Of a stretch of 64,000 nucleotides of DNA, positions 337 through 48,108 are shown piece by piece. This stretch comes from Polytrichum commune. Lineage: Eukaryota > Streptophyta > Polytrichopsida > Polytrichales > Polytrichaceae. Made by a program: the position numbers and the translations under genes. The number at the start of each line of letters is the position of its first letter. The stretch's first letter is position 1. The stretch is taken from NCBI GenBank assembly GCA_950295325.1, contig OX485806.1:10974001-11038000 (forward strand). Reading direction: 5' to 3'. Below the pieces are notes generated by a model. That model saw only the letters and a list, made by a program, of their open reading frames with translations, made no database searches and was not told where the DNA came from.

Positions 337-442
337 TGTCGTGTAGATAGCGATCGTGTGTCACTGCAACTCGAGTACCAACTACCACTAACAAATAACA
401 CCAAAACATAGCAAAGGCACACATACATAACACACCTCCACA
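337..442 (-). repeat. 106-bp TG...CA terminal unit, copy a (candidate short LTR)
   Basis: On the minus strand it starts TGTGGAGGTGTG after a purine-rich stretch and ends ACACGACA. Two further copies of exactly 106 bp lie at 12822-12927 and 13264-13369. The flanks past the CA end differ in all three copies, so this is a true boundary. This copy is the most diverged. Confidence 0.75.
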
Positions 443-1218
443 TGCCCTCCCTTAGTTGATTATGGAGCCCCGCCAAACAGCTAAGACCAATGCCAATCCA
501 AAGGGCATAGATAATGAAGAATTAATTCGCAACCAACTAGTGTGCTGAACGTCATTCCAAGGAACTGTAGGTTGAGTGCAGTGTGAGCCCCATTTTTAAT
601 CGCCTCTGATGTTTGGCCATCAGATTCCAAAGAATTAATTCCACCGTCTCACGTTCGATCGCGTCTCTAAACCATAACTCCTTATTTTCCACAACACAGT
701 GGAAACCACACATGATCATTGAGTACGACTGGTGGAAGCACCAAGTACCGAAGATCCTCGACATCGAGGACGAGTCTGCTATCCAGATGGTAGAGAAGTC
801 AAGGGTGGCCTCAGGCATGCCATGTGCCAACCACGTTGACACTGATCACACAAGAGCATAGTAGCCGCTCCTTTCTTCTCCCCACACATAAAACATGAAA
901 GACCCTATGGCACAACGGCCACGATGACATGGGGCACAATTTTTGAAATACTCGCGACATTCCCTGCCATCCTTGCCTTCCAACAACAACAAACCACTCG
1001 GCAACACCTCCTTCACCCGAAGGACAGTGCACCCCGCCTTGACATCCAATATCGTAGGCGCCTCACATTGGAGATAAACATAATATCCCTATCAGAATCT
1101 CCGCAACTGGGGTCAGTAAGCACCGTTGCAAATGCGTGCATAACGCAATGTGTCACGGTGCTGAGCAATGGACAAATTTTCCATGGCCGTAGGCATGGCC
1201 CTCTGGAAGAATTGAGCA
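337..1218 (-). mobile_element. 3' fragment of the PHD/methyltransferase retrotransposon family, inverted
   Basis: Read on the minus strand, this matches the 3' end of the large element at 12.0-12.93 kb: the integrase tail just after the catalytic domain, the basic tail (VKEVLPSGLLLLEG), a damaged PHD-finger region, the 3' untranslated region, the polypurine stretch, and a 106-bp TG...CA unit at 337-442. The match stops near 1218, so the copy is 5'-truncated. The reading frame is broken in several places and the PHD cysteines are only partly kept. It shows that the family has more than one copy and that the 106-bp unit ends an element, because the sequence beyond 337 is unrelated to that beyond the other copies. 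Confidence 0.85.
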
Positions 1219-1591: not shown

Positions 1592-2343
1592 GTACACTAA
1601 ATATTGTATTCATTGTCACTTATTGTTTGGAATTACACAATGTTATATCTATTAACTCTATATCACACGATCTACCAACAAATGTCAAATTGGTTGTTTG
1701 GACATTTATAGCACATCAACAACTTTAATTGGTAAAAACTTACATCTTCAGCAATAGAAAGATACAACACCGTGTAACTCCAAAGAGCAAGTGACACTAA
1801 GGGCCGCTTTACACATAGAGGCTGGGCCAATTCGTTGTGTAAGAGGCTTGAAATCCTCACTTGTGATTGGCCAAAAGGTTTAAATCGGCCTCAACCCCTT
1901 TACACCTAGAGGCAGGGTCGATTTGGTGGTATGAAATTTTTAGTCAAAAAATGCACGGTATGACACGGCCCGAGCTCGTTGAATTGGGTGCACCCAAAAT
2001 GGAGGGCCAATGTCACATTTCAATAATAAAAACTCTTTTTGAATAAAAAATGATTTCTTCAACGAACCATATCCATTGGATTATGTGGAAACATGAACGG
2101 CTTTATGCTAGATTATGCTAGATCCGTTGGATTATCCTAGATTTATTGAATCGACCTAGCTTCTTGGCCCTAAGGCCTTTACATATGGAAAAATTGGCCC
2201 GCATTATAATCTTATCATAATGTGTAGTTGAGGACGGTCTCCAACCCAAAAAGGGCTGAAATTTCATGCAATCGGCCTCTTGGGGAATTGGCCTGGCCTC
2301 TAGGTGTAAATTACAGCGGCCCTTAATTATCATATTTAGTGTA
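1592..2343 (+). mobile_element. MITE family 1 copy, split by another MITE
   Basis: The ends resemble the family signature (TACACTAAATATTG at left, ATCATATTTAGTGTAG at right) and the interior shares the TTGGAATTACACAATG and GGTTGTTTGGACATT blocks with the copies at 26991-27222, 28431-28652 and about 62385-62582. The right terminal repeat is interrupted at 1800 by a second MITE (1801-2322). Removing that insertion restores the family's right end. Confidence 0.7.
1801..2322 (+). mobile_element. MITE family 2 copy (PIF/Harbinger-like), nested
   Basis: The termini are inverted repeats: GGGCCGCTTTACACATAGAG at left and the reverse complement of a sequence ending CTCTAGGTGTAAATTACAGCGGCCC at right. 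Flanks are TAA (left) and TTA (right), an imperfect 3-bp target duplication. A related element at 27262-27635 has a perfect TAA duplication. No ORF remains, so it is non-autonomous. Confidence 0.7.
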
Positions 2344-2642
2344 GTCCGTTTTCGGTAACCCAAGTGACAGAGAACAAAGGTTAACTTACCACAGTAAACA
2401 ATTTGCAGCACTGCCACCTGAGGCACTCCTCAATATAATAATAAGCGCCTCCGTCTCCCAAGCTGTACCCTGTCACAGGCACCAATGAAGACAGAAATTA
2501 ACTTCGCTGACAAAGACGGGGACACGAGGGACGGCGTCCTTTGCCCTGCCCTGCGTCCCCCGCATGCACACTTATTAACATACTCAAAGTAACTTATATA
2601 TAATCCCTCCCTCCATGTAATTAAGCCGCCTTATAATCTCGG

Positions 2643-3460
2643 TACTGTACTCCCTCTTGAGGATGACACGTTTAGGAACACACACAAAAAAAGTCGTATT
2701 ATCGAGGTGTCGTCTTCTCATTTACTTTACTATGACAAATGGTGTAAAGTTGTGGTATTGCTGAGGGAGTATGAAAACATAAGTAATATGAGTTTAAAAG
2801 TATAGACAATGAGTTTGAGCGATATCGATGGTGTGAAAAATAATAACTTTTAATTAGAAACAAACATGAATGTTCTCGAGAACTCTTGGAATAATAAGAG
2901 TCCAAAGATCTGTGGTGTTGCCTACCCAAGTTAGCAACTGTCTTATCTAAATTTCCTATTAACTTTTGAAAACTAAGAATTTCATTAACACCAACGTATA
3001 AAGAATTCTCTAACAAAAAATGAGACAATAATGATGCATGACATTTAGCATCACTAAGCTTTATTATACGTGGAGCAACATCATTCACATCCACTGAATG
3101 TAGATTAATATCAAAATCAAAGTCTTATGCATGATTGGTTCCCAAAGCAGCATCCACCAACTCATCAATACTCATCCACCAATTCACGGCAACATACTAG
3201 GTAGGAGGCCACTCTAACCCTAATTCTCATTAAGTTCCCAATGGTATGTGAAGTTCCCAAGTAGTTCCCAAGTTGAAATGAATGCATTTTAGATGTACAT
3301 AACATAAATGAAAGGAATTTTAGCATTAACCACCTCTTTGATATGACAAAACATAGATTCTAAATATCGCATTATCAAGTGTCACAGTCGTATAAAAGAG
3401 GGAGTTTTGAACTAAAAAGTTTGGTGTCGCAAAAATGTGTCGTATTAACGAGGTTAGACT
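2643..3460 (-). pseudogene. Possible pogo/Tigger-like transposase remnant
   Basis: The minus frame 3094-2699 reads SDAKCHASLLSHFLLENS, then FQKLIGNLDKTVANLGRQH and LDSYY. This helical pattern reminds me of the C-terminal tail of pogo/Tigger-type DDE transposases, but I see no catalytic residues. The flanks carry related short motifs (CGTATTATCGAGG near 2695, CGTATTAACGAGG near 3440, and CTCCCTCTT at one end versus AAGAGGGAG at the other) that could be worn element ends. The assignment is tentative. Confidence 0.3.
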
Positions 3461-3793
3461 TGTCACGGTATGCGGCGTCGACGGCCGCATCTTATCCGTT
3501 GGGTTTCATCCATCTAGATTTGGATGGATGAATCTAGATGTGGAGAGGAAGGCTCCTAAGTGAGGAGCCTCCTCCTTGGCTTGGCATTCTTGCCAAGTCA
3601 AGTCTTGTGAGTTAGTGTGTGGAGAGAGCTTGTTTGAGGTATAGATTGCATGATTTTGCAATAAATTTTGAGTTCTTCTTTCCCTACTTACACTCTTGGA
3701 TTCTCCCTTGGTGGAGTGAGAGATAGCTTGACTAGTTGTGTGCATTTGAAGAGAGATTTAGAGCTCTTGCAAGGGTTTGATTCTCTTCCTTCT
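3461..3793 (+). repeat. 333-bp direct repeat X, 5' copy
   Basis: Begins TGTCACGGTATGCGGCG. It is repeated at 12930-13262 with about six differences by eye, five of them transitions. It contains self-complementary stretches (GGCTCCTAAGTGAGGAGCC, CTTGGCATTCTTGCCAAG) and a CAATAAA motif, as LTRs often do. It is either the start of a longer LTR or leader sequence next to the LTR; the two are not separable here. Confidence 0.85.
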
Positions 3794-5306
3794 CACTTGG
3801 CAAGAATGCTTCATTTTTTTATGTTTTCTTCTTCATTCTTGAGATGTAATGTGCAAGGGAGGGCGTGAAGACAAGGAGTGACGAAGTTATGAAGTTCCGG
3901 AGCGAGAAAACCCCGGATTTGCGAAGCAAGATAAAGAATGTTTGCTTGTGAATGTCACTTCAAGGTGAATTGTAGTGACAAGTTGTTGAATTTTCCACGG
4001 AATTTTATGTCAATTGATTGCCTGCAAGCATGAATTTGTGAAGTGGGAGGTGAAGGGGACATTCTTGATCCTAAAAAGATATCAAACTGTTAACAAAAAA
4101 AAAAAAAACAGAAGAAAGAGAGGAAGAGGGAGGCGGTCTGCCTCCCTCCGCTGCTGGTCAGGGCTGCTGGTCTGCGCTGGTCTGGATAGCGGCGGCCATC
4201 TGCGTCTGTCCGCGGCCGCCAGTGTTTGTCAGTAGCCGCCTGCTGGGACAAGGGATCAGGGAGGTTTCTTACTTAATCCAACCTCCTGCTGGTGCAGCTG
4301 GGGCAGGGGATTGGGGAGGATTTTCACAAATTAACCAATCCCGACACGGGGTAGTGATCGGGAAGATTTTTGTTTGGACGTAATCGGTTTAGATCCGGGT
4401 GTTTGCAAGTCAAACCGGTTACGTATTAACACTCTTTATTTATTTATTTAGTTTTAGTTTTAGTTTTTCTTAATTAATCAATGCGTTAATGAATTAAAAG
4501 CGGACTTAATTTAATATAATTAATTTTAATTAATTAATTAGGTTATGTTTCCTTTCAACTTCTAATTTTTCTCTTCTCTCTAAGGGGTTAATTTCTTAGG
4601 CTTATTAATCAAGGACACAAGGAATAAACCTAAGCTCTTATGAAATATTAAAAATACTTGGGATTCTTTTTAGGGGTTGTGTTGTACGAAATTTCCGAGG
4701 GGTGTGTCATTGGGAATTAGGTGGCATGTGGAATTTTCGTTCGGCCTAAAATAAATTATTATTAGGGTCGAATTGTGTTTATCAGCACATATTCCTGGCA
4801 TTGTTGTGAGGAGAGATTCTTAGGTAGTGGTGAAAAAATGAGAGATGTGCATTTTCATTTCTTAAGCAATAGGGGCTCTTCATTTTGACAACCAACCGCA
4901 GGCGGGTGCCGGTTGGTCGCGGTCGCTTTCAATTTTTGTTTAAATGTTGTTTGGGGAAGAGGATCCAGTGCTGAAAATTGCATTGTTTTCTGTCTTTTGT
5001 TTTGGTACCTTCCCCCGTCGCGGGTTGTATTGCTGGCAGTTGTCGGCATTGCCCCATTTTGTGTTGTTATAGATTATGATAGGGTACTGTGGAGGTGAGG
5101 TCGGATTAATGACCGACGGGACCTTTGTTTGTGCACCAAGTGGGCGGTGCTTGTTTTCACTTGTGGTGAGGCTGGGTTAATGACCAACAGACCATAAGTT
5201 TTGGTGGTGGTTGTAGGTGCAGGTTGCCTTTGACCCTTTTTCTCTTTGTACCTGGATACTAATTCATTTTGGGTTGTTGATTCGGTGACCATCCCATTGT
5301 GGGTTT
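3794..5306 (+). other. Retrotransposon 5' leader / possible rest of 5' LTR
   Basis: About 1.5 kb without a convincing ORF before the Gag start. It holds an A-run with a purine-rich patch (4086-4135), a GC-rich patch (4136-4260), and a stretch at about 4345-4430 that matches MITE family 3 (ATCGGTTTAGATCCG, AACCGGTTACGT). I found no clear tRNA primer-binding site of the usual TGGTATCAGAG type. Confidence 0.5.
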
Positions 5307-8300
5307 ATGGTTACAACTCGTACTCAACACTATCGTTCTCCGTCCCCAGGAGCATCGGAAGGTCATCCCTCGGACCTCTCGGACGTTGAACTAGTGGTAG
5401 TACCTAACGAGGTTTTTCAGCCTACTTCGGCGTGGGGGACTATCACTCGGTCTCACGTCCTGTGGGTGGGAATCTTTGACGATATGGAGGACGAGACTAG
5501 GGGAGGGATACGGGACCGGTTTTCCGGTCGAGCAGGGACCATTTCTCTGCAAGACTGGAAAATCCGGTTTCGTACGTGGATGCGAGAGAAACGCCAACGC
5601 AATACCAATTTTAACGATTGGTATGCGTTCGAGCTTCTGCCTCAGCATTTGGAGCATGAAGCTCTCCAAATTTATGAGCAGTGGACGGAGGCTGATTGGA
5701 TGGAGCTGCGCCAGGTGGAGCGATACTGGGAGACTCGGGTTGAGTTGGTATCCACATTGAAGGAAGGCGCAGCTTCCAGTTTCATGGCCGTCCCTGAGGT
5801 TAAATCGGAGGTGTCGGAGGGAGTATTTGTGGTGGACGTAGAGGGAGTTTCTCCTGGTGAATCCAAGGATAAGGGTTCTGCTCCCGCTGTGGCGAAGACG
5901 TCGAGCCCCATTCTTCCATTCTCCCGTTATGCCCAGGCTACCCAGGCGGCTTTAGCCTCTTTGGGGGCTCCGCCAGTTTTTGAGCCGTTGCGGGCATTTG
6001 AGCTGCATCTACATGAGGAGTACGGAGGTTTCCGTCGGGACCAGATGCAGCGGATACAAGATTTTAGACGGGAGAAGGACGATACACCTCGTACCATGTA
6101 TACGAGGTTGGCGAGGTTTGCCAGAGAATCTAGAGGTGTGTTTGCGGAAAGTCAATTGGTAAAGGTGTTTTTGTCTAAGATTGACAAACGCCTTCTTGAC
6201 TTGGCGCTGCCCAGGATCATCATGAATTATGGTGGTCGGGCGACACTCGCAGAGGCATTCACCATTGTGGAGCAATGTGATCGTGCATTGTGTCAGCACG
6301 ACGCCACTGATTTGGTGTCCCTGCTAGTAGATTCTAGCAAATCCCGAAGAGTTCCGGTTGCGGCTGCGGGATTGGCGGAAGCCGAGGTAGACAAGACTAT
6401 GTATTGTTGGTCTTGTGGGCAGGCTGGCCACGCTAAGAAGGACTGTCCTTCGAAGCAAAGGCAAGCCCAAACCGTCACTACTCCGAAGCGGAACCCATTT
6501 GTTCCCGCTAAGGGCTCGGCGAAGGGGACGACGGGTAATCAGTTACCCAAGCAGTTGAAGTGTTCCCATTGTGGGCGGAACAATCATGCGGTGGAGAACT
6601 GCTTTGCTCTCCATCCTGAGAAACGTCCTTCTTCCGACCGGGAGAAGACGTTGGAGGCGAAGATTGGAGCCATGGAGGAGAGGTTCAAAAGCTTGGCGTC
6701 ATCCGGCCAAATCTTGGCCTCACCGTCTTCCTTCGGAGCTCAGGCTAGTTCTTCCACTCCGGATTACTATATGTTCGGAGCCTCGGGCGAGGTGGTGAGT
6801 TCCGCGGCCGTGACACGTGCTCAAGCCGTGTCACAATCCATACCTTCGACCACAAATGAATATGTGGCAAGCTCGCGAGCTCGGGACAATGCGCCTGCGG
6901 ACCAAATTGGTCAGACACGACTACCATTATCTTTTGGATTGGCCGATGCCGTCCAATTTGTCAGTGGTCGTCATCCAAATGATGAGGTTTCACATTCAGC
7001 GACCGATGTGGCGCACACGTTGGCATCCAAGGTGTTGCACACACCTTTGTTCACGGCCATGGAATGGTCATCGCCAGAGTTTCAACCTGCTAAGGTTTTT
7101 TACTTAGCAGGTAGGATTTTGGAAGGGAAGGCATCCTTACCTTCTTTGACTGTGGCTCAAGCCACTACGGACATCCCTGCTTCTGAAGATCCTGAAGATG
7201 TGGCCAAACGGCGAGCGAGACTTGCGGCAGAGACCATTGCGTCTTTTGACGCACACGCCTTAGATGACAAAGCACCGACCACGTCTTATGACTCACCAGT
7301 ATCCGCGGGTGCATCCTATCTGTCTGATGTCGCTGCTAGACCTGTCCGCGAGCGCCGCGGCATTCGATCCGGCGTTGTGCGTATGGTCAATGATACCGGA
7401 ATTTTGGTGGTCAGTCGCACTGGGAGCAATGCTACTCGGGTTGCTCCCCGTTGTGTGATGATGGATTCAGGGGCACAGCCAGTTATGATCGGCAAAAGGC
7501 TTGCCCAAAAGTTGAGGTTGACGGCCGAGGATTTGGCTCCCTGTCCATTCACCATTGTCACATCCATTGGTCACGTGGAGCAGGCCATGGGTTATACTCG
7601 AGAGCCATTACAACTTAGCTTCCAAGTGAAGCCTGAAGATTCACCCGCACCTCTTCTTCTTAGGTGTGCGGTGACGGATGCGACCAACTATGACATTTTA
7701 GTTGGTCAGCAAGCACTTTACCCTTTGGGTTTTATTTTGGACAACTGGACTGAGGAGGCGTGGATCCGACCAGGTTGGTCGGCTGGGGATGGCCGCATGG
7801 AACTTATTCCCGTGGCTTTCGCGGCGGCCGCGACCATAGCACCATTATCTATGGTTTTTGGATGTGGTACTATGGTGGACACATTGCCTTATGGTTCCGC
7901 ATTGTTGGAGGAGTCATTGGCATTCATGGGGAGTACAGACGATCAACTGGATATAGCACCTGAGGGTGTATTGGTGCGCCATCCCAAGGATCCCCTTCCT
8001 CTTTGGCGTGATTCCGCCGAGCTATTTCGGAGGTGCGAGGATATTGTTCACTCTCTCACTCCTAGGACACCGGTCATATCATGTGTCCTCTCGACATTGG
8101 CACATCCCATTTTATGGCAGCCGCCAGACGCGGGGATTACTTTGGTGGAACTGTTTGGGGGCATCGGCACGGGCTTAGCAGCTGTATTGGAGGCTGGCCT
8201 CACGGTCAGACGGTATGTCTATGTGGACAACTCTCCAGTGTCCACCCGTGTGGCTCGTCACCATCTTCACCAGTTGATGGTATTGTACCCCCAGCAGTTA

Positions 8301-9149
8301 CACCCAACTGCCATTCGTGGGTGTTTTTCACGTCTCCCTCGTGATGTTACACTCATCAGTGAGGCCGACTTACGACACTTGGGCCCGGTGGATATGGTGA
8401 TTGCGGGATGGCCATGTCAAGGCCACTCACGTGCTGGGGCAGGCCGAGGTTTAGAGGATTCCAGGTCTAGCCTTTTCTGGGACCTCATCCGGCTTATGCA
8501 GTGGTGGTTTACCCACCAACCTTCTCCTCCAGGGTATATCTTCGAGAATGTAACTTTGTTGGGAGACTCTCAGGACAAGGTGTTGGAAGGCGGTCATTAT
8601 GTCCGTCAACACCTTGGACATCCCATTTTTGTGGATGCTGCGAGCATTGGTTCTTATGCCCACCGGCCTCGGTGGATTTGGACCAACCTCGCACCGTCAT
8701 CTAATTTAGCTGCAGCATTTTCTGCAGTGTCTTCACCTTTGGATCAGAAGGTGGATGACATCTTGGATCCAAACCGGACCTCTTTGCCGGTTGTTCGAGA
8801 TGATTTACCCCCGTTGGCATTGGTCAACAAAGTGGGGGCACCACGGAAGGCCTTTCCCACCTTTATGACGTTTCCACAGTCATTCGCCTTCCGCGATCGG
8901 GGGCCGGGTATGGTGTGGGATGCTAACACCAAAATCCACACCGAACCGTTGGCTGACGAACGGGAGCGGGCCATGGGATTCCGCACTGGCACCACCGCAA
9001 CTCCTAATATTTCTGAGGGCCAACGACGCTTCGTGTTGGGCCAAGCCATGGATTTTTATACCATGGTGTGGACTGTTGCTTTATGCCTTTCATTGCAAAG
9101 GCATCGTGGTGAACAGTGGTTGTCTCTGGGGGCAGAGGACTCTGGTTAG
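5307..9149 (+). CDS. Gag-protease-DNA methyltransferase polyprotein (ORF1)
   Basis: 1280 codons, uninterrupted. Gag-like helical regions lie around residues 85-140 and 220-345. CCHC zinc knuckles are at 367-380 (CWSCGQAGHAKKDC) and 419-432 (CSHCGRNNHAVENC). A retropepsin-type protease has its active site at Asp720 (DSGA) and a later ILVG strand near 800. From about 945 a cytosine-5 methyltransferase follows: motif I LFGGIGTG (~950), motif IV GWPCQGHS with catalytic Cys1037, motif VI FENV (Glu1080), motif VIII HRPRW (1119-1123), and a C-terminal ERERAMGF...RRFVLGQAM block matching motifs IX-X. The unpermuted order and the ENV/ERER.xGF features resemble DNMT3 most. All key residues look present, so the enzyme may be active. 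The stop is TAG, and the same frame stays open beyond it. Confidence 0.93.
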   Translation: MVTTRTQHYRSPSPGASEGHPSDLSDVELVVVPNEVFQPTSAWGTITRSHVLWVGIFDDMEDETRGGIRDRFSGRAGTISLQDWKIRFRTWMREKRQRNTNFNDWYAFELLPQHLEHEALQIYEQWTEADWMELRQVERYWETRVELVSTLKEGAASSFMAVPEVKSEVSEGVFVVDVEGVSPGESKDKGSAPAVAKTSSPILPFSRYAQATQAALASLGAPPVFEPLRAFELHLHEEYGGFRRDQMQRIQDFRREKDDTPRTMYTRLARFARESRGVFAESQLVKVFLSKIDKRLLDLALPRIIMNYGGRATLAEAFTIVEQCDRALCQHDATDLVSLLVDSSKSRRVPVAAAGLAEAEVDKTMYCWSCGQAGHAKKDCPSKQRQAQTVTTPKRNPFVPAKGSAKGTTGNQLPKQLKCSHCGRNNHAVENCFALHPEKRPSSDREKTLEAKIGAMEERFKSLASSGQILASPSSFGAQASSSTPDYYMFGASGEVVSSAAVTRAQAVSQSIPSTTNEYVASSRARDNAPADQIGQTRLPLSFGLADAVQFVSGRHPNDEVSHSATDVAHTLASKVLHTPLFTAMEWSSPEFQPAKVFYLAGRILEGKASLPSLTVAQATTDIPASEDPEDVAKRRARLAAETIASFDAHALDDKAPTTSYDSPVSAGASYLSDVAARPVRERRGIRSGVVRMVNDTGILVVSRTGSNATRVAPRCVMMDSGAQPVMIGKRLAQKLRLTAEDLAPCPFTIVTSIGHVEQAMGYTREPLQLSFQVKPEDSPAPLLLRCAVTDATNYDILVGQQALYPLGFILDNWTEEAWIRPGWSAGDGRMELIPVAFAAAATIAPLSMVFGCGTMVDTLPYGSALLEESLAFMGSTDDQLDIAPEGVLVRHPKDPLPLWRDSAELFRRCEDIVHSLTPRTPVISCVLSTLAHPILWQPPDAGITLVELFGGIGTGLAAVLEAGLTVRRYVYVDNSPVSTRVARHHLHQLMVLYPQQLHPTAIRGCFSRLPRDVTLISEADLRHLGPVDMVIAGWPCQGHSRAGAGRGLEDSRSSLFWDLIRLMQWWFTHQPSPPGYIFENVTLLGDSQDKVLEGGHYVRQHLGHPIFVDAASIGSYAHRPRWIWTNLAPSSNLAAAFSAVSSPLDQKVDDILDPNRTSLPVVRDDLPPLALVNKVGAPRKAFPTFMTFPQSFAFRDRGPGMVWDANTKIHTEPLADERERAMGFRTGTTATPNISEGQRRFVLGQAMDFYTMVWTVALCLSLQRHRGEQWLSLGAEDSG

Positions 9150-10740
9150 GGGGCACAGCGGTCCACACCCATGGAGGAGGGAATTCACGCCATGGTTGGA
9201 GAAGCCGAACGAATTTTTCAATTCGAGCAGCATGTGATGGAGGAGCTTCGAGCTCAACATTTTTACACTGCTTCAGTTTCTTCGCCTACGGTGGTGGCTT
9301 CATCATCACATATTGGTGGTGATGAAGAAATGTCAGACTCTAGTGCTAGCACCGAGACTGGGGCATGGTTAATGCCCCCTCCTCTCATTAGCAATTAGAG
9401 TATGTGCCAACATCAGGTGGTTCTTCTTTGGTGGAGAGGAAGACTACAGAGTTTGATGATTGGCCATTGGAATTGGGCCCTCATCTCACTGGTGCTGAGG
9501 CACGGAAAATACGAGCATTTATTCGCTCGTACCGTAGGTGTTTTGGTTTTAGCCTTCAAGATCTTGAAGGTTATTAAGGAAAGCCCATCCACATTCAGTT
9601 GGAGGACGACCATCCCATTTTTCGGAGACCTTATAGGCTCAGTGTTTCCGAGCGGAGTGGCGTTCAGGCTCGTTGCCGAGAGCTTTTGGCAGCAAGGCTC
9701 ATCGAACTTTCCAACGGGGAGTATGCTTGTGCTACGGTTATGCCATCGAAAAATGATATCTTTGGCAATTGGACGGAGAAGCGGATGTGCGGGGATTACC
9801 GTCCAGTTAATCGGATGACCAAGTCGGATCGATATCCCATGCCAATCCTGGAGGAGTTGTTCGATGCCCTCGGATTTGCTCGAGTCTTTAGCACGTTGGA
9901 CTTGAGATCCGGCTATCACCAACTCCCATTACTTGTGGGAGACCGAGTGAAAACCACATTATGGGGAGTTGATCAAGATGGGAAAGATCAACTTTACCAT
10001 TGGAAGTTTCTTCCGTTTGGCCTAAAGAATGCACATGCGGAGTTTCAAAGAGTGATGGACCAAGTTCTCTCTGGCTTACCCTTTGCTCGGTGTTACATTG
10101 ATGACGTTATCATTTTCAGTATAACACCACATGAGCACGTAAGGCATCTTCAAGCCGTTTTTGAGCGGTTGCAACGGTGGGGATTGCGCTTGCACCACGG
10201 CAAGTGCAAGTTTTTCCATGACCGGCTGGCATATCTGGGGCATATGATTGTTCCAGGAGGTCTTGGGGTACAACAAGCTAAGGTGGACGCCTTGCAGAAG
10301 ATTCCGGCACCGGTTGATGTGCCGAGACTTCGTGCTTTCTTGGGCTTGGCGAATTACTATCGGCGATTCGTCAAGAACTTTAGCTTGATCGCCAAACCTC
10401 TCACCATTCTCACGAGCAAGGACCAACCATGGACTTGGGGTCGTGAGCAACAACAGGCGTTTGAAACATTGAAGCAGAAACTGGGTACGGCTCTAGTGCT
10501 TCGACGTCCAGATGTCTCCAAATCTTTCCAGTTGCATACGGATTGGAGTTCATTGGGTTTGGGAGCAGTTCTCACTCAGAAGGATGATTTTGGCCGGGAG
10601 TATGTTGTTGCTTACGCTTCGCGAAGCAATAACACGGCGGAGGCTAATTATTCATCCTACGAGGGAGAAGCATTGGCGGCGGTATGGGCTATTGCTCATT
10701 TTCGGCCGTATCTTTATGGTCAGCACTTTACTTTAGTACT
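9150..10740 (+). pseudogene. Retrotransposon pol: linker, reverse transcriptase, RNase H (broken)
   Basis: After the ORF1 TAG the same frame runs to 9398 (linker starting MEEGIHAMVGEAER at 9171). The frame then changes, and the pre-RT region (IRSYRRCFGFSLQDLEGY) has a TAA at 9575-9577 where related proteins usually have Gln or Lys. RT follows without a stop: MCGDYRPVNRMT, FSTLDLRSGYHQ, FLPFGLKNA and the catalytic YIDD at 10094-10105. RNase H keeps an Asp (LHTDWSSLGLGAVL) and the Glu of SYEGEALAAVWAI. Near 10735 one base appears lost, moving the last RNase H motif (TDHQPLRWL) into another frame. RT itself looks intact. Confidence 0.9.
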
Positions 10741-12537
10741 GACCATCAGCCGTTACGGTGGCTCATGGAGTCGGATAAGCTTACTGGGAAGCTTGCTAGG
10801 TGGGCTTTGTTGCTCTAAGAGTATGACTTTGAGGTGGTACACCGTGCTGGGATTACCAACCTGGATGCAGATGGACTCTCGCGCAATCCAAGTCCTTCGG
10901 ATGAGGACTTGACCGGGGCCAGGTGGCATGGAGATTGTGATCGAGAGGCGGTTCCAGGTTGGCACGCGGCTGCTTATGTCACTTTATTTTCTGGTGCATC
11001 TGTTGAGATTCCGATACAGGGCTCGGATGATGAGACTGATCGGCCTCAAGCTATTGCCAATATATGGGAGGATCTTCCCGTATTGCATAAGCTTCAACAG
11101 GGTACCTTTCCTTTGTCTATTTCGGCAATGGAAAGGGATAGGATTGGACATCGAATAACAAGGTTCCGTTGGGAGAACGGTTTGTTATTTCGATTGTGGC
11201 CGGATGGGACAAGGCGTATTGTTCCCAGGCCGGATCAGAGGGCCTCCTTGGTGCGACAAGTGCACGAGGAACTTGGCTATTTTGGCATACGCAGGACACA
11301 TTCGATGTTGCGTGGCCAATATTGGTGGACTGGCATGTATCAGCAGGTGGCTGCATATGTCGGGAGGTGTGAAGTTTGTAACCGGGTCAGGTCTAGCTTT
11401 AACACCTTATCACCTCAGTTACAGCCCTTACCTATCATGGGATTAGGCTACCGTTGGTCGCTGGACTTTGCAGGGCCGTTGGTGGTTACACCACGTGGAG
11501 CAAAGTACGTTTTGGTGATGGTGGAGCATTTTAGCAAATGGATTGAGCTTGTTGCTCTACCCCAGAACTCTGCAGAGTTGGCCGCGGCCGCCTTTTTGGA
11601 TCGTGTGTTAGCACGTTTTGGAGCACCAGCTGAGGTGTTAACGGACCAAGGGAGGGAGTTCCTTGGTGCTTTTGAGGAGTTGTGCACTAAGGCTCTCATA
11701 GATCACCACACCACCTCTCGGGATCATTCGGAGGCAGATGGCTTGGCTGAACGTGTTGTTCAGACAACCAAGCGTGGCTTGAGGAAGTATGAATTACTTC
11801 GGGGAAGCCACCGGGATTGGGACCTTATGTTACCATGGATTGCTATGGGCTATCAATTTAGTAGGCATACCTCTTTGACATCCTACAGCCTGTATCAATT
11901 ATTGTATGGACGTGAGCCTATACTCCCGAGTTCTATTCGGGAAAAACTAGCTCCTGTTATGAACTTGGATGACCCAGACCTTTGGGCAGAGTGTTTATAG
12001 GAGCGGGCTCAATTCTTCCAGAGGGCCATGTCTATGGCCATGGAGAATTTGTCCATTGCTCAGCACCGTGACACATTGCGTTATGCACACATTCGTAGTG
12101 GTGTTTACCGACCTCAGTTGCGGAGATTTCGGCAAGGGGATTATGTTTATCTTCAACGTGAGGCGCCTACGACATTGGATGTCAGGGCGGGGCGCACTAT
12201 CCTTCGGGTGAAGGAGGTGTTGCCAAGTGGTTTGTTGTTGTTGGAAGGCAATGATGGCAGGGAATGTCGCGAGCATTCCAAAAACTGTGCCCCATGTCAT
12301 CTACCTATTGAGGGTAGAGTTCATCCTGAACTGGCTGTCGTACCAGAGGGTCTTCTATGTTTTGTGTGTGGAGAGAAGAAAGGAGCGGCTACTATGCTCT
12401 TGTGTGATCAGTGTCAACGCGGTTGGCACATGACATGCTTGAGGCCACCCTTGACTTCTCTACCATTTGGACAATGGAGTTGTCCTCGCTGTCGAGGATC
12501 TTCGGTACTTGGTGCTTCCACCAATCGTACTCAATGA
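10735..12537 (+). pseudogene. Retrotransposon pol: RNase H end, integrase, PHD finger (two in-frame stops)
   Basis: One frame runs TDHQPLRWLMESDKL, stop TAA at 10816-10818 (expected Gln), then EYDFEVVHRAG and the integrase. The zinc-binding region keeps the first His and both Cys (CEVC), but the usual second His (GHFG) is Tyr (GYFG). The D,D,E core is present: SLDF, VLTDQG and DGLAERVVQTT. A TAG at 11998-12000 interrupts the tail (expected Gln before ERAQFFQRAM). The tail has a basic LRRFRQGDYVYL region and then, in place of a chromodomain, a PHD finger (12355-12495): CFVC, LLCDQC, GWHMTC, WSCPRC, a full Cys4-His-Cys3 set. Restored, this would be a complete integrase. Confidence 0.9.
12355..12495 (+). 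other. PHD finger at the integrase C-terminus
   Basis: Cys4-His-Cys3 zinc ligands in PHD spacing: CFVC, twelve residues to CDQC, then GWHMTC, then CPRC preceded by the conserved Trp (GQWSCPRC). PHD fingers of this type commonly bind histone H3 tails, so it could steer integration as chromodomains do in chromoviruses; that role is inferred. Confidence 0.88.
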
Positions 12538-12821
12538 TCCTGTGTGGTTTTCATCATTTTATACCTGCCCAAATGGAAAATGATGAGTTATGGCATAGAG
12601 ACGCAATCAACATGAGGCGGTGGATTTAATTCTATGGGATCTGATGGCCAAACATCAGAGGCGATTAAGGATGGGGCTCACCTTGCACCCAGCCTACAGT
12701 TCCTTGGAATAACGTTTACCACACTAGTTAGTTACGGAGCAATTTTTCATTACCCATGCCCTTTAGATTGGCATTGGTCCTAGCTGTTTGGCGGGACTCC
12801 ATAGTCAGCTGAGGGGGGGCA
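12538..12821 (+). other. Retrotransposon 3' untranslated region and polypurine tract
   Basis: About 280 bp after the PHD stop, ending in CAGCTGAGGGGGGGCA (12806-12821). A G-rich purine run directly before a TG dinucleotide is the usual plus-strand primer site abutting the 3' LTR. The inverted copy at 0.3-1.2 kb has the equivalent run beside its own 106-bp unit. Confidence 0.75.
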
Positions 12822-12927
12822 TGTCGAGGTGTGTTGTTTATGTGTGATTTTGCTATGTTTTAGTGTTGTTTGTTAGTGGTGGTTGGTACTCGAGCTGCAG
12901 TGACATACGATCGCTATTTACACGACA
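12822..12927 (+). repeat. 106-bp TG...CA terminal unit, copy b (candidate 3' LTR)
   Basis: Starts TGTCGAGGTGTG immediately after the polypurine tract and ends TTTACACGACA. It differs from copy c by three C/T changes. At 106 bp it would be an unusually short LTR for an autonomous gypsy element. Confidence 0.75.
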
Positions 12928-12929
12928 GC

Positions 12930-13262
12930 TGTCACGGTATGCGGCGTCGACGGCCGCACCTTATCCGTTGGGTTTCATCCATCTAGATTTGGATGGATGA
13001 ATCTAGATGTGGAGAGGAAGGCTCCTAAGTGAGGAGCCTCCTCCTTGGCTTGGCATTCTTGCCAAGTCAAGTCTTGTGAGTTAGTGTGTGGAGATAGCTT
13101 ATTTGAGGTATAGATTGCATGATTTTGCAATAAATCTTGAGTTCTTCTTCCCCTACTTACACTCTTGGATTCTCCCTTGGTGGAGTGAGAGATAACTTGA
13201 CTAGTTGTGTGCATTTGAAGAGAGATTTAGAGCTCTTGCAAGGGTTTGATTCTCTTCCTTCT
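12930..13262 (+). repeat. 333-bp direct repeat X, 3' copy
   Basis: About 98% identical to 3461-3793 by eye. It lies two bases after copy b of the 106-bp unit and stops one base before copy c, so it is bracketed by two copies of that unit. Confidence 0.85.
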
Positions 13263-13263
13263 T

Positions 13264-13369
13264 TGTCGAGGTGTGCTGTTTATGTGTGACTTTGCTATGT
13301 TTTAGTGTTGTTTGTTAGTGGTGGTTGGTACTCGAGCTGCAGTGACACACGATCGCTATTTACACGACA
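13264..13369 (+). repeat. 106-bp TG...CA terminal unit, copy c
   Basis: Near-identical to copy b. It is followed by unrelated sequence (GACTGTAACTTTC...). With copy b it brackets repeat X, giving a 548-bp structure that looks like a small TRIM-like element or the scar of a tandem recombination. Confidence 0.75.
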
Positions 13370-13997
13370 GACTGTAACTTTCTTCTCTTCACACTTGTAC
13401 GCCTGCCACGAAACCCAACCACAAATACTTTTATCCCCTCCGGCAGGATGTATTTGTTTTGCAGGAAATGTCACTCTAGCATTTTTGGCTACACACTGCA
13501 AAAACACACTACACAAAAATGAAAATATTTAGTATTGTTACCACCCTAGAAAACGTCATACTTTTAGAGTATGTGAAGGTGAACTTGAAATGCTCAAGTG
13601 CATTGCTTTGACTCTTCTTTTTTTGTTGGATTAAAAGCTTGTGTTGCTTGGTAAGTGAGCATATATGAAGGTCAATGGGGTTTGTTTTGGTGGATGGGTT
13701 GTTGGAAAGAGTTTCAAACGGACCCAAAACTCAATGTAGTGGAAGGAGTTGTTAGTAACTCCGTACGTAATGGTTTTGGTGCTCAAATGCCGTAGGACAG
13801 GGTAAAGTTAGGGGGGATTCGAACTTGGGACGTCATTGGTCGAATTGGGGTAGGACGGGGTCGTCATGAGCATATATATGTGATTAGTGTTGTGAGAGGC
13901 TTGTAAGGAGTTGCGAGGTCGACCATCGCATAAGATGTGGTATTGGTGAGTAGGGTTGACGAGGAACAATGATCGGGAAGAGCCGGCAGTTATATTA

Positions 13998-14440: not shown

Positions 14441-15430
14441 GATGTGGTACAAGGATTGAGAATTTTTTGGGGTATCATTTGAGCCAATTGGGGGTTGTAC
14501 AGTATGGGGGTTGGTTCAAAGTATGACATGCACATGATGGCTTTGATTGTATGATGGTTTCGTTTTTATCAATGTGCAAAGAGATGAAGGCCTTTTGGCT
14601 CATCACACTTAGAACACCTTGGAACAAACATTTGTTTGTGAATTGCTTGAATGTTTGTGATGGTGGGATTGATGTGGTTTAGAGAGGTAGGCTTTTTGCA
14701 TTACCTGAGCTAATTAGGGTTGTAAATTGTTGAGTCTGGTCAAAAATTTAGTGTGCACATGATGGCTTTGATTGTGTGGCATTTTCGTTCATCAACAGTG
14801 TGCATAGAGACGAAGGATTTTTGGGTGATTAGACTTTGAACTCCTGGGAACGAACACTTGTCTTGTCATGTCTAGAAAGGTTTTGGGAATCCTCGCTGTT
14901 ATGGCAAAGTCATACTGATGTGGTACAGAATTTTATTAAATTTCTTTGCACCACTTGAGGAAATTATGGGTTTTACACTCTGGAGTCTGGTAGAAAATGT
15001 AGCATGCACACGGCAATTTCGATTGTGAGATACTTTTGTTCTCCACCGTGCAAAGAATTGACGGAGTTTGGCTTCTCACACTTTGAACTCCTTGAAACAA
15101 AAATTTATGTCATTTCTTAAAAAAATGTAAAACCTCAATATTATGGCAATACTTTGTGCTCATGTCTTTAAGGCTGTGCATGATGGAATGATGTGGTGCA
15201 AGAATTTAGACGTCCTTTGCATTAGGTTTGAGCTGAACAAGGTGAACATAGTGGAATCTGGTCAAGGTGTAGCATGCACGCGATGGCTTGCATTGTGTGA
15301 CAATTTTGTCGATCAGTGTGCATAGAGATGAAGAAATTTTGGCTTACCACACTTTGAACTCCTTATAACAAACATATCGTCTGTCAACAACAGATTGTTA
15401 CAACAATGTTTTGTGCTCATGTCATTAAGG
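14441..15430 (+). repeat. Degenerate tandem array, four units of about 230-273 bp
   Basis: Units start with GATGTGGTnC/TT at 14441, 14671, 14917 and 15190. Each carries a mid-block like GCACATGATGGCTTTGATTG, then TTTTGGCTnATCACACTTnGAACnCCTT and an AACAAACAT-type end. Units are well diverged from each other. The array lies upstream of sequence related to the 3' flank of the gene at 36 kb. Confidence 0.75.
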
Positions 15431-45890: not shown

Positions 45891-47055
45891 ATCATCGCCG
45901 CTCACAAACTTGAAATCATAAACTAGTACTTACAAATCATATCGATAGAAACTACTTACCAGGTTGTTACGAAGGTTTGTTTCAGTGATGATGAATGCAG
46001 TCTGCATGCTACAGATGCTATTCTAAAGCTTATCTACATCGAAAGCTGCAACTACTTCGTAAAGGCTATGTGACTTTAAGTAGTAATTATAACTGCAGGG
46101 TAATCATGAAGCAAATTCCTCTGATAATGCAATAAGGTAGTGCATTTTTTTGGCCGGTTCTATGCAATTTAGGGTTTCTGTGCAATGTTAAGGTTACAGT
46201 ACATGCGTTGCTGCTACAACAATAACATGACTCATCGGCGCTCACAAACTTGAAATATTCTAGCGCCAAATATATATTGATTCAGGTTATCAGACTGTCA
46301 CTGAGCTTTGTTCGGCGACGATGATGGTTTCAAGAGTTTCTGGTTTAGAGCTAAAGTACATCCGAAAGCTTCTGCAACTTCCTTGTAAAGATACATGTGA
46401 ACTCAAGCAGCACTCAGGGACTTGCATACGGTATATCTACTACAGAGGATACAAGCACACACAAGGTATCCATGATGCAGATTCATCTGAAAATTCAATA
46501 AAGTAGTACAAATTTTGGCTCGTTTAATTTGTGCAATGGCAAGATTAGAGTACACGGGTTTCTCCTGCTGCAACTAAGTTTTTGTCGATTGGCGCCAAGT
46601 CGGAGCTCGGGGAAAACCGATACAGAAAGCTTATTCGATTGTTCTTACTGTTTGTAAACTATAGCTGTGACAAGTCGTTAGGATGTGAATCGACGGTTAC
46701 AAGCTTGAAATATTTCCATATGCTACTGCCAAATTAAATCAATATCAAATATCAAATTGTCACTGAGCTGTGTTCAATGATGGTTTCTAGAGCTTATATG
46801 TACATCGCAAGCTGCATATATCTCCAGAGGATGCTAGGATATACGTGGCTACTAAATACAGGGTAATCTTGATGCAAATTCATCTGAGAATTCAATAAAT
46901 AGTGCACTTTTAGAGTTCTGTGCGATTTTGTGTATCTGTCAATGGTTTTTGGCTGGTTATGTGCAATGGCAAGATTTAGAGTACACGGATTGCTGCTGCT
47001 GCAACCAAATTACCGTGGACCGGCGCCGGGACGGAGCTCGGGGAAAACCGATTTA
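45890..47055 (-). repeat. Tandem copies of the terpene synthase 3' end
   Basis: Three diverged units end (plus reading) at about 46265, 46640 and 47055. Shared order: a CAnACTGTCACTGAGCTnTGTTC block, a GATGCAnATTCATCTGAnAATTCAATAAA block, TGTGCAATGGCAAGATT, GAGTACACGG, and CGGAGCTCGGGGAAAACCGAT. The last block encodes the final residues of the synthase on the minus strand (SVFPELRPGA). The unit at about 46595-46630 would encode SVFPELRLGA, so it is a copy of the gene's end. Confidence 0.8.
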
Positions 47056-48106
47056 GGATGGCGGTACCGGTCGGAGGAAGCGCAGAAATGAATGTTCCCC
47101 GACATGAAGTCTTTCAACCCTTCGACATACCGATGCACACTAGGTCCCCATGGCTCCACCTCCCACTCCTCCGGCAACTGCGTCTCAAGCTCCGAAACCA
47201 TACCCGCATTCGAGTTCACAAGATCCACAGACCTCCATGCAGCTTCCGCCAAACTTAAGCCCTCGGTATCCATCAAAACCTTAAGCAAATTCCTCGGGTT
47301 ATCCTCCTCGATGGCCTCTCTCGGATACGAAAACAAGTCATTCACAAAGGAAGAATGCACCAAAGCTGCATTACCTAACGCCCGAACGGTTGGATGATTC
47401 CGCACCGAATCCGGAAGAAATGCGTTGTTAGAAAGCTCCACTAGCATGGTGAGAAGCTCCCCTCCGAAGTTCTGTGCACGGGCGTGCGTGTAGGAATCCA
47501 AAGTTTGCAGGTATGAGAAGTCGCCTGCGATGTGATTTGCATGTGTGGCGATGCATACCTCATGGTGTGCTAGCATCCCATCTGCAAGAGTTTCGACAAA
47601 TTCGGGTGAAGATAACCTTCGAAGCTCCTGGCCTAACTCCCACACCATTCCTTCAATCGGGACAGTGCTAGGGTTTGCTTCTTTTTTCAGAAGGGAGTTT
47701 ACTCGACGAAGGAATGCTCGGATGTTTTGAGGGCTGTCGCGGACGTGGAGGTCGTTGCAACATTCCTGGAGGAGGCTGTCGTTCGGATCGTCGAACACTA
47801 AATCGTCGATGAGGAGGAAGAGGTTGATCATCACGTAGATGGCGAAGAAATGGTCGGCGCTCACTGCTCCGTTGTACCAGAAGCTCGCAAGGGAAAGGGA
47901 TGATTTGGAGAACCACTGAAACGTCTGTTCCAATTTCCATCGTCGGCCGATTTCGAGCAAGTGTTGCTCGGCCGATGCTGAGAACTCGGATTCCCGGCGG
48001 GGTGGGATGCCTTTCACGGTGACGGAGCGGAGGAGGGGTGGAAGCTCGGTTGAAATGTCGGCGGTGTTGCTGCTTGTGGATTTTTTTGGTTCTAATTCCG
48101 TCCGAC
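47010..48106 (-). CDS. Microbial-type terpene synthase-like protein, main exon
   Basis: A class I terpene synthase alpha-domain, cyclising a prenyl diphosphate; the product is not predictable. Metal-binding motifs are both present: DDLVFDD (a DDxxxD form) and NDLFSYPRE (NDxxSxxxE) 155 residues later. Arg in SYTHARAQN lies 46 residues before the second motif, as the diphosphate sensor should, and an RY pair (SSDRYRHP) is near the C-terminus. Compact size and these motifs fit the microbial-type synthases of non-seed plants rather than typical plant synthases. The open frame has no ATG before its first conserved part; a TTACAG acceptor at 48107 indicates an upstream exon. No stops or frameshifts. 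Confidence 0.92.
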
Positions 48107-48108
48107 CT

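Follow-up and report, generated by a model that had tools for sequence, protein, structure and literature searches.

Why would a retrotransposon encode a DNA methyltransferase, when cytosine methylation is the means by which its host silences transposons? The question is raised by a 64,000-nucleotide stretch of the genome of the moss Polytrichum commune (contig OX485806.1, positions 10,974,001 to 11,038,000 of the forward strand), hereafter the window. A single open reading frame (ORF) of 1280 residues, at 5307-9149 on the plus strand, encodes a Gag-like region, zinc knuckles, an aspartic protease and a cytosine-5 DNA methyltransferase (DNMT) domain. An earlier note, made from the sequence alone, had read this ORF as a retrotransposon polyprotein carrying a complete DNMT domain in a land plant, and had stated that such captures were known from a charophyte alga and from dinoflagellates. 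Both statements hold, the first by a Pfam match, motifs in unpermuted order and a catalytic cysteine (Cys1037), the second by the published record (PMC5890265). An element that keeps such an enzyme under selection reverses the usual picture. From sequence comparisons, we find that the ORF almost certainly belongs to a Ty3/gypsy family with DIRS-like split repeats, in which a DNMT3-type methyltransferase is a fixed part of the Gag-side polyprotein.

A DNMT3-type domain in a Ty3/gypsy element

The Pfam model DNA_methylase matches residues 1012-1093 of the ORF above its cut-off (E 3.4e-11), and the motifs LFGG, PCQ (Cys1037), ENV, HRxR and LGQAMD follow one another in unpermuted order. Searching solved structures with the single sequence placed DNMT3A on top (E 8e-13). 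A profile search again ranked DNMT3A first (2e-22), followed by DNMT3B, DRM (partly aligned) and bacterial enzymes, with DNMT2 far lower (5.5e-5). The earlier note had called the domain "DNMT3/DRM-type". The first half of that label stands, DNMT3A and DNMT3B being the closest matches, and the second is dropped, because the motifs of DRM are permuted and those of the window domain are not. Judged by motif order and structural matches, the window domain is DNMT3-type. The host's own DRM exons, with permuted motifs, were seen in L051 (G000:C2:4701906-4705905), at 1659-3400 on the minus strand.

Of 93 relatives whose domain is nearly complete, 91 keep the catalytic Cys (the exceptions are one gap and one Tyr), all 93 the Glu of ENV and 90 the leading Arg of HRxR. 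The host-genome copies (n = 33) retain PCQ in 31 cases, HRxR in 32 and ENV in 30. The normally near-universal Pro before the catalytic Cys is replaced by Glu (EC) in 18 of the 93 element DNMTs, for example P0036, P0041, P0045, P0047 and P0050. Ten of these 18 come from elements with the DNMT between RNase H and integrase (t2, described below), five from the other plan (t1), and three are unlabelled.

The element that holds the ORF spans 9.9 kb (window 3461-13369), and 3' of the DNMT it encodes reverse transcriptase (RT), RNase H, a DDE integrase and a PHD finger. The Ty3/gypsy order RT-RNase H-integrase is present (Pfam RVT_1, RT_RNaseH, rve). Membership of the chromoviruses was rejected: Pfam finds a PHD finger after the integrase, and no chromodomain. 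Among solved structures, this finger is closest in sequence to fingers from CHD4 and PHF12; that of UHRF1 is among the lower matches. No Pfam model matched the Gag region of the window protein, and a weak Retrotrans_gag match was found in one relative only (P0021, E 0.054), so the label "Gag" is suggested by position, the knuckles and that match. Zinc knuckle and protease both exceed the Pfam cut-offs in the Closterium relative P0041. The window copy itself is decayed: a premature stop and the loss of one base disrupt ORF1, the Gag-side frame, and pol has another deletion and stops and is split over several frames. Intact copies occur elsewhere in the genome.

Copy number and selection in the moss genome

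The earlier note had allowed that the domain might occur only in this copy. In the genome searched (408 Mb, about 406 Mb of it in seven contigs), a Pfam search gave 123 DNMT matches and a protein-level search with the window domain gave 119 (62-100% identity to it), which merged into 181 places. Nineteen of the 62 Pfam-only places had an RT listed downstream and one was a host DRM exon; the three that were aligned (L002, L006, L008) were element DNMTs of a second subfamily, subfamily 2. Counting the 119, these three and 12 found upstream of RT copies, at least 134 loci carry the domain, a number that leaves the remaining Pfam-only places outside. A DNMT was listed 0.2-3.5 kb upstream of 84 of the 110 RT matches. 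We fetched 12 of the other 26, and all 12 have one, which is whole in 8, whole but spread over two frames in 1 and partial in 3; no DNMT-less family copy was found among these 12 of the 26 candidate RT loci. Contig G000:C4 holds 55 of the 181 merged places, the most of any contig and above its genome share (59 of 408 Mb).

The other outcome that the note had named, a ratio of nonsynonymous to synonymous substitution rates (dN/dS) near 1 across family copies, was likewise not what we found. Over the DNMT of 30 copies, dN/dS was 0.25 on internal branches and 0.59 on terminal ones. The internal value points to purifying selection on the DNMT, and the terminal value indicates that many settled copies are decaying. 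These 30 loci are the best protein matches to the window, a choice that lowers apparent dN/dS. L039 and L040 (the same copies as L016 and L038) and the short L020 were dropped before the count, L042 and L043, of other length, lie outside the set, and 5 of the 30 copies carry a stop within the domain. When the subfamilies are compared, dS comes close to saturation; in the DNMT, two windows allowed dN/dS to be computed, giving about 0.15. In that comparison, identity in the DNMT was 62-66% in three 100-residue windows and 48% in the window entering the tail; in pol it was 86-94% in 8 of 10 windows and 76% and 68% in the other two.

The A repeats of copy L041 show one difference over 336 aligned bases and none over the 333-base core, near identity which indicates that the family moved recently; those of the window copy have 6 differing sites. 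In the second half of the DNMT region, L041 matches copies such as L023 at about 89% identity, compared with 93-99% on either side. Within the set L009-L041, this mosaic suggests recombination between lineages.

Split repeats, target duplications and a presumed self-primer

The repeats of the element are arranged A1-body-B1-A2-B2, the split-repeat plan of DIRS elements. Six copies were examined with their flanks, and the full set is present in four (the window copy, L040, L041 and L042); L043 has the form A1-body-B with a target duplication, and no second repeat set was seen in L039. All five copies with both ends readable start with TGTC, end with GACA and are flanked by a perfect 4-bp duplication: GACT (window), TGTC (L040), GAGA (L041), GAAG (L042) and AACG (L043). 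Thus, the start of A and the end of B are the ends used at integration. The B1-A2 junction reads ACGACA-GC-TGTCACG in all four full copies.

Two more familiar assignments were rejected. Ordinary long terminal repeats (LTRs) do not fit, as the repeat scan gives a lone left repeat and B-A-B at the right, a pattern recurring in other copies. Nor is the element a member of DIRS, which has a tyrosine recombinase and no target duplication, given its DDE integrase and 4-bp duplications. A 3' fragment of a second, older relative, from the PHD region to repeat B, lies inverted at window 337-1217 (minus strand), its arms 87-90% complementary. It stops exactly at B and lacks A2-B2, which could reflect recombination between B1 and B2 or the insertion of a form with one repeat (cf. 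L043).

Just after A1, the sequence ACTTGGCAAGAATGC is the exact complement of 15 nt within A1 in the window copy and L041; in L040 the match covers 13 nt. The site of L042, from subfamily 2, reads ACTTGACAACAAT, with two positions changed and the A1 partner changed to match, leaving 13 nt perfectly paired; here the last six bases of the aligned repeat already belong to the site, since B begins with the same letters. The presumed primer site is complementary to the element's own leader over 13-15 nt in all four copies examined. The pattern fits self-priming of the Tf1 type, and the compensatory changes between subfamilies support that reading. A tRNA-primed start was considered and set aside when the bases after A1, inspected by eye with no systematic tRNA comparison, showed self-complementarity instead.

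A conserved leaky-stop context between the DNMT and pol

Copies L040, L041 and L042 have an ORF1 of 1366-1386 codons from stop to stop, one in-frame UAG, and a pol of 1045-1048 codons in the same frame. In L043 pol is open for 1009 codons, with an extra stop before it, and in L039 pol is broken. The window ORF1 ends early at an in-frame stop; intact copies continue to a conserved UAG (window 9389-9391). The stop context is TAG CAA TTA in the window copy and L039-L041 and TAG CAA TCA in L042 and L043, and TAGCAATCA stands at the stop in both subfamily-2 copies. Across 30 loci of the protein-level search, TAGCARYYA is found at the expected place in 29: 27 share one offset, and L027 and the window copy are shifted from it by a single base. 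The locus without it is L020.

UAG CAR YYA is the type I leaky stop context of plant RNA viruses (PMC11166343). Because the UAG lies 3' of the DNMT, the DNMT falls on the Gag side of a probably leaky stop and should outnumber RT and integrase. We conclude that the DNMT is very probably expressed at the level of Gag, with pol made by readthrough.

Relatives and the history of capture

Among the matches listed in the protein database are element polyproteins from Marchantia (P0021, P0023, P0026), Calypogeia (P0020, P0109) and Closterium (P0041, P0066), filed as "hypothetical protein" or "unnamed protein product", and from many unnamed sources. The DNMTs of these Marchantia, Calypogeia and Closterium proteins are 34-50% identical to that of the window. 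The order protease-DNMT(-RT) occurs in P0021, P0026, P0041 and P0066; P0020, P0023 and P0109 carry no order label. The database assigns one DNMT of the element type, P0074, to a metagenome bin of bacteria (Candidatus Obscuribacterales); the sequence is probably plant DNA in the bin.

Two plans can be distinguished, t1 with protease-DNMT and then RT, and t2 with RT-RNase H-DNMT-integrase, in which a PHD finger is in view in 11 proteins. A tree of the DNMT splits 40 t1 from 17 t2 rows at one branch (Shimodaira-Hasegawa-like approximate likelihood-ratio test, SH-aLRT, 99), with 36 of 93 rows unlabelled and uncounted, and a tree of RT splits 12 t1 from 13 t2 rows likewise (SH-aLRT 97). Both trees are unrooted and quick, supported by SH-aLRT only, and carry a long-branch warning. 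Three t2 rows (P0044, P0053, P0061) were labelled by the order DNMT-integrase with no RT in view, some t1 rows by DNMT-RT with no protease in view, and six short RT pieces stayed outside the RT tree. The elements of the host genome, Closterium and Marchantia are all t1 and lie on the same side of both trees (P0066 only in the RT tree); in the DNMT tree, the unlabelled Calypogeia rows fall on the t1 side. The stretch from motif I to the catalytic Cys is 87 residues in 33 of 40 t1 rows and 90-92 in all 17 t2 rows, compared with 70 in DNMT3A and 80 in the host DRM.

No named cellular DNMT3 was among the proteins listed in three database searches (120 of 176 for the second), most of which are nameless. 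As the trees hold no cellular DNMT3, the argument for a single capture is one of shared structure only. The simplest history would be a single capture, with one relocation inside the polyprotein and a long period of co-evolution, and the two placements could have in common that the enzyme is packed with the replication enzymes.

An apparent methylation footprint in settled copies

On terminal branches, C-to-T changes per site were 0.0208 at CG (63/3032), 0.0163 at CHG (46/2830) and 0.0083 at CHH (88/10564), with A/T-to-G/C transitions at 0.0017. On internal branches C-to-T was alike in the three contexts (CG 0.0053, CHG 0.0057, CHH 0.0052). Because the deamination signature at CG and CHG is found on terminal and not on internal branches, settled copies look methylated after insertion. 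The elements are not CpG-poor: the observed/expected ratio of CpG was 0.66-0.75 in four of them, compared with 0.52-0.63 in three stretches of flanking DNA in the window. On internal branches of the 30-copy DNMT set, C-to-T also exceeds the reverse rate (0.0017) about threefold, all contexts alike, possibly because the element has a bias of its own in copying or deamination.

A proposed role for the DNMT, and its alternatives

We propose the following cycle. Gag-protease-DNMT would be made in bulk and Gag-Pol as a readthrough minority, and the DNMT would enter the particle with RT and integrase; that it is packaged seems to us probable. The element RNA would prime its own copying, and ends lost in transcription would be restored from the internal B1-A2 junction, as has been proposed for DIRS elements. 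In the particle or pre-integration complex, the DNMT would put CG methylation on the element's new DNA, and we rate the prospect that its own complementary DNA (cDNA) is the main substrate at a little under even. Methylated cDNA would arrive resembling resident silent DNA, not naked foreign DNA; integrase would insert the A...B ends with a 4-bp stagger, and the PHD finger may steer the complex to chromatin. Taken whole, a split-repeat Ty3/gypsy element whose Gag-side, packaged DNMT methylates its own cDNA is our best explanation, and we judge the chances of its being right to be balanced. A wider claim, of an old green-lineage family with a particle DNMT3 made at Gag level, at least two placements, a leaky stop and its own DNA methylated before integration, is advanced tentatively.

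Several observations weigh against this explanation. The terminal-branch dN/dS is raised, and between subfamilies the DNMT evolves faster than pol. Methylation after insertion would most simply be the work of the host, and the footprint shows no sign of self-methylation. The nearest tested enzyme, that of Klebsormidium, was inactive in yeast, a result called inconclusive there, as DNMT3B failed too (PMC5890265). Finally, no K. nitens sequence is named among the database matches listed, and likeness to its element is by description only.

What else might the enzyme do? It could act in trans in the host nucleus, methylating DNA of the host or of competitors, and might in this way silence rivals or weaken the host's control. 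A DNMT on the Gag side of a leaky stop could be in excess as free enzyme, and the PHD finger could carry pol products to chromatin; however, the t2 DNMT, inside Pol between RNase H and integrase, better fits a role in the particle, and we think action in trans improbable. We give a similarly low probability to self-limitation, for which de Mendoza et al. named slowed retrotransposition as a possibility (PMC5890265), and by which the DNMT would mark the element's fresh copies for silencing, sparing the host and so the element. The terminal-branch excess of C-to-T at CG and CHG over CHH is as for methylated copies, but ordinary host silencing explains it equally well. CHG methylation is, moreover, the mark of CMT-type rather than DNMT3-type enzymes, and so points to the host. 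It is also decidedly improbable that the domain methylates RNA or serves as a nucleic-acid-binding part of the particle, with DNA methylation not its selected role. The lack of DNA methylation by the nearest tested relative in yeast (inconclusive there; PMC5890265) and the Glu-for-Pro change in 18 of 93 relatives would suit such a role, but the near-invariant Cys, Glu and Arg are hard to explain for a mere binding part, and the DNA enzymes DNMT3A and DNMT3B match best, with DNMT2 far below.

The history could also be other than the one we favour, if the land-plant DNMT was acquired independently of the algal ones, or if t1 and t2 captured a DNMT twice. The different positions of the DNMT in t1 and t2 and the unrooted trees, without cellular DNMT3, leave room for this. 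However, the long stretch between motif I and Cys shared by t1 and t2 is unmatched by DNMT3A or the host DRM, and a PHD finger follows the integrase both in the host-genome t1 elements and in t2 (other t1 proteins with an integrase have none in the part covered). The Closterium and Marchantia relatives share the arrangement and tree side of the moss elements, which makes a separate land-plant capture unlikely; of the two outcomes that the earlier note had offered for a land-plant copy, we therefore retain the extension of range and regard the separate acquisition as doubtful. Repeated capture in either form seems unlikely. That the domain is a chance insertion, an assembly join or a dead passenger might be suggested by the decay of the window copy, but copy number, the internal dN/dS and the same order in proteins of other sources reduce the chance of this to nearly nothing, and we rejected it.

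The explanation by a packaged, cDNA-methylating DNMT lends itself to experiment. The readthrough site and the self-priming helix give precise and cheap predictions, and the two placements of the DNMT offer a natural test of enzyme action inside the particle. A bryophyte host that offers two subfamilies, intact copies and no fewer than 134 loci brings the question within reach of tests in land plants, whose methylation genetics is well developed.

Features of the window

The coordinates of the element's parts are collected in Table 1. Just downstream of the element, window 14492-15040 contains three direct repeats of 73 nt, which are 67-73% alike and spaced at 225-251 bases. A terpene synthase ORF lies at 47010-48143 on the minus strand (Pfam Terpene_syn_C_2, E 3.6e-23), a family in keeping with a non-seed plant. 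The plastid psaB of the genome scored highest against the solved chains 7ksq, 6l35 and 8htu, from the moss Physcomitrium; as the structure set is not known to include a liverwort chain, this points to a bryophyte host and probably to a moss.

Table 1. Parts of the DNMT-bearing element and its flanks, in window coordinates.
Feature	Position	Strand	Basis
Target-site duplication, 4 bp, left copy GACT	3457..3460	.	Flank comparison
Repeat A1, left element end (TGTCACGG...)	3461..3793	+	98.2% identical to A2
Presumed self-primer sequence within A1, complementary to 3795-3809	3584..3598	+	15-nt perfect inverted match
Presumed primer-binding site just after A1 (self-priming)	3795..3809	+	Co-varies with partner in subfamily 2
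ORF1 of window copy (Gag-like, knuckles, protease, DNMT; early end here)	5307..9149	+	ORF, Pfam
First CCHC zinc knuckle	6402..6452	+	Pfam zf-CCHC, residues 366-382, below cut-off
Aspartic protease core (DSGAQP)	7455..7571	+	Pfam Asp_protease_2, residues 717-755, below cut-off
DNMT3-type cytosine-5 methyltransferase, unpermuted; catalytic Cys1037 at 8415-8417	8127..9146	+	Pfam, motifs, structure-database searches
Leaky-stop motif TAG CAA TTA between ORF1 and pol	9389..9397	+	TAGCARYYA in 29/30 loci
First part of pol: reverse transcriptase and the beginning of RNase H	9392..10738	+	Pfam
Second part of pol: remainder of RNase H, H2C2 zinc domain, DDE integrase	10738..12000	+	Pfam
Integrase end and PHD finger (PHD core ~12358-12492)	12028..12537	+	Pfam PHD, E 1.8e-11
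Polypurine tract just before B1	12811..12819	+	Sequence
Repeat B1	12822..12927	+	106 bp, repeat scan
GC dinucleotide of internal B1-A2 junction (ACGACA-GC-TGTCACGG)	12928..12929	+	Sequence
Repeat A2	12930..13262	+	333 bp, 98.2% identical to A1
Repeat B2, right element end (...CACGACA)	13264..13369	+	106 bp, repeat scan
Target-site duplication, 4 bp, right copy GACT	13370..13373	.	Flank comparison

Comparison with known systems

The closest known element, compared by description, is KnitGypsy-Dnmt3 of Klebsormidium nitens (de Mendoza et al. 2018; PMC5890265), and the kind of element is thus already known. The two are alike in their Ty3/gypsy domains, in an unpermuted, intronless DNMT3 in the coding region, in DIRS-like repeats and in purifying selection (PMC5890265). 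KnitGypsy-Dnmt3 copies are methylated (CHH, CHG; PMC5890265), and the moss copies look so from their footprint. The two may differ in placement: the KnitGypsy-Dnmt3 methyltransferase is described inside the Pol ORF, and the moss DNMT lies between the protease and the leaky stop, with pol after it. The published text mentions neither PHD nor "split", and the part consulted makes no mention of readthrough, self-priming or target duplications (PMC5890265). The hosts differ as well, the moss being a bryophyte with its at least 134 loci. Many copies of an element type known from a green alga thus also live, under selection, in a land plant of an early-diverging lineage.

SymbioDIRS-Dnmt3 of dinoflagellates is likewise a retrotransposon with a DNMT3, and its enzyme methylates CG de novo in yeast (PMC5890265); it has the DIRS order, unlike the moss element with its DDE integrase and target duplications. 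The Tf1/sushi, Tcn1 and TAR elements prime themselves through pairing of their leader with a site that follows the left repeat, as is presumed here, and self-priming has been reported in plants for Tcn1 and TAR elements (PMC6317226). The survey text consulted makes no mention of a methyltransferase or PHD finger (PMC6317226). Unlike the moss element, all of these have ordinary LTRs. The chromovirus members among them carry a chromodomain. The stop context is identical to that of type I readthrough, which serves in plant RNA viruses and here would mark the boundary between Gag-protease-DNMT and pol (PMC11166343).

No description of bryophyte DNMT elements, or of the Closterium ones, was found in a literature search that missed most subscription papers and preprints, and the text available of a paper on Marchantia methylation makes no mention of DNMT3 (PMC5784723). 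As far as that search shows, four things are new: the occurrence in bryophytes (in the moss genome, and in Marchantia and Calypogeia by database names); a probably leaky UAG CAR YYA stop with the DNMT on the Gag side; the apparent Tf1-like self-priming, which compensatory changes support; and two lineages with the DNMT at different places, separated alike in the DNMT and RT trees.

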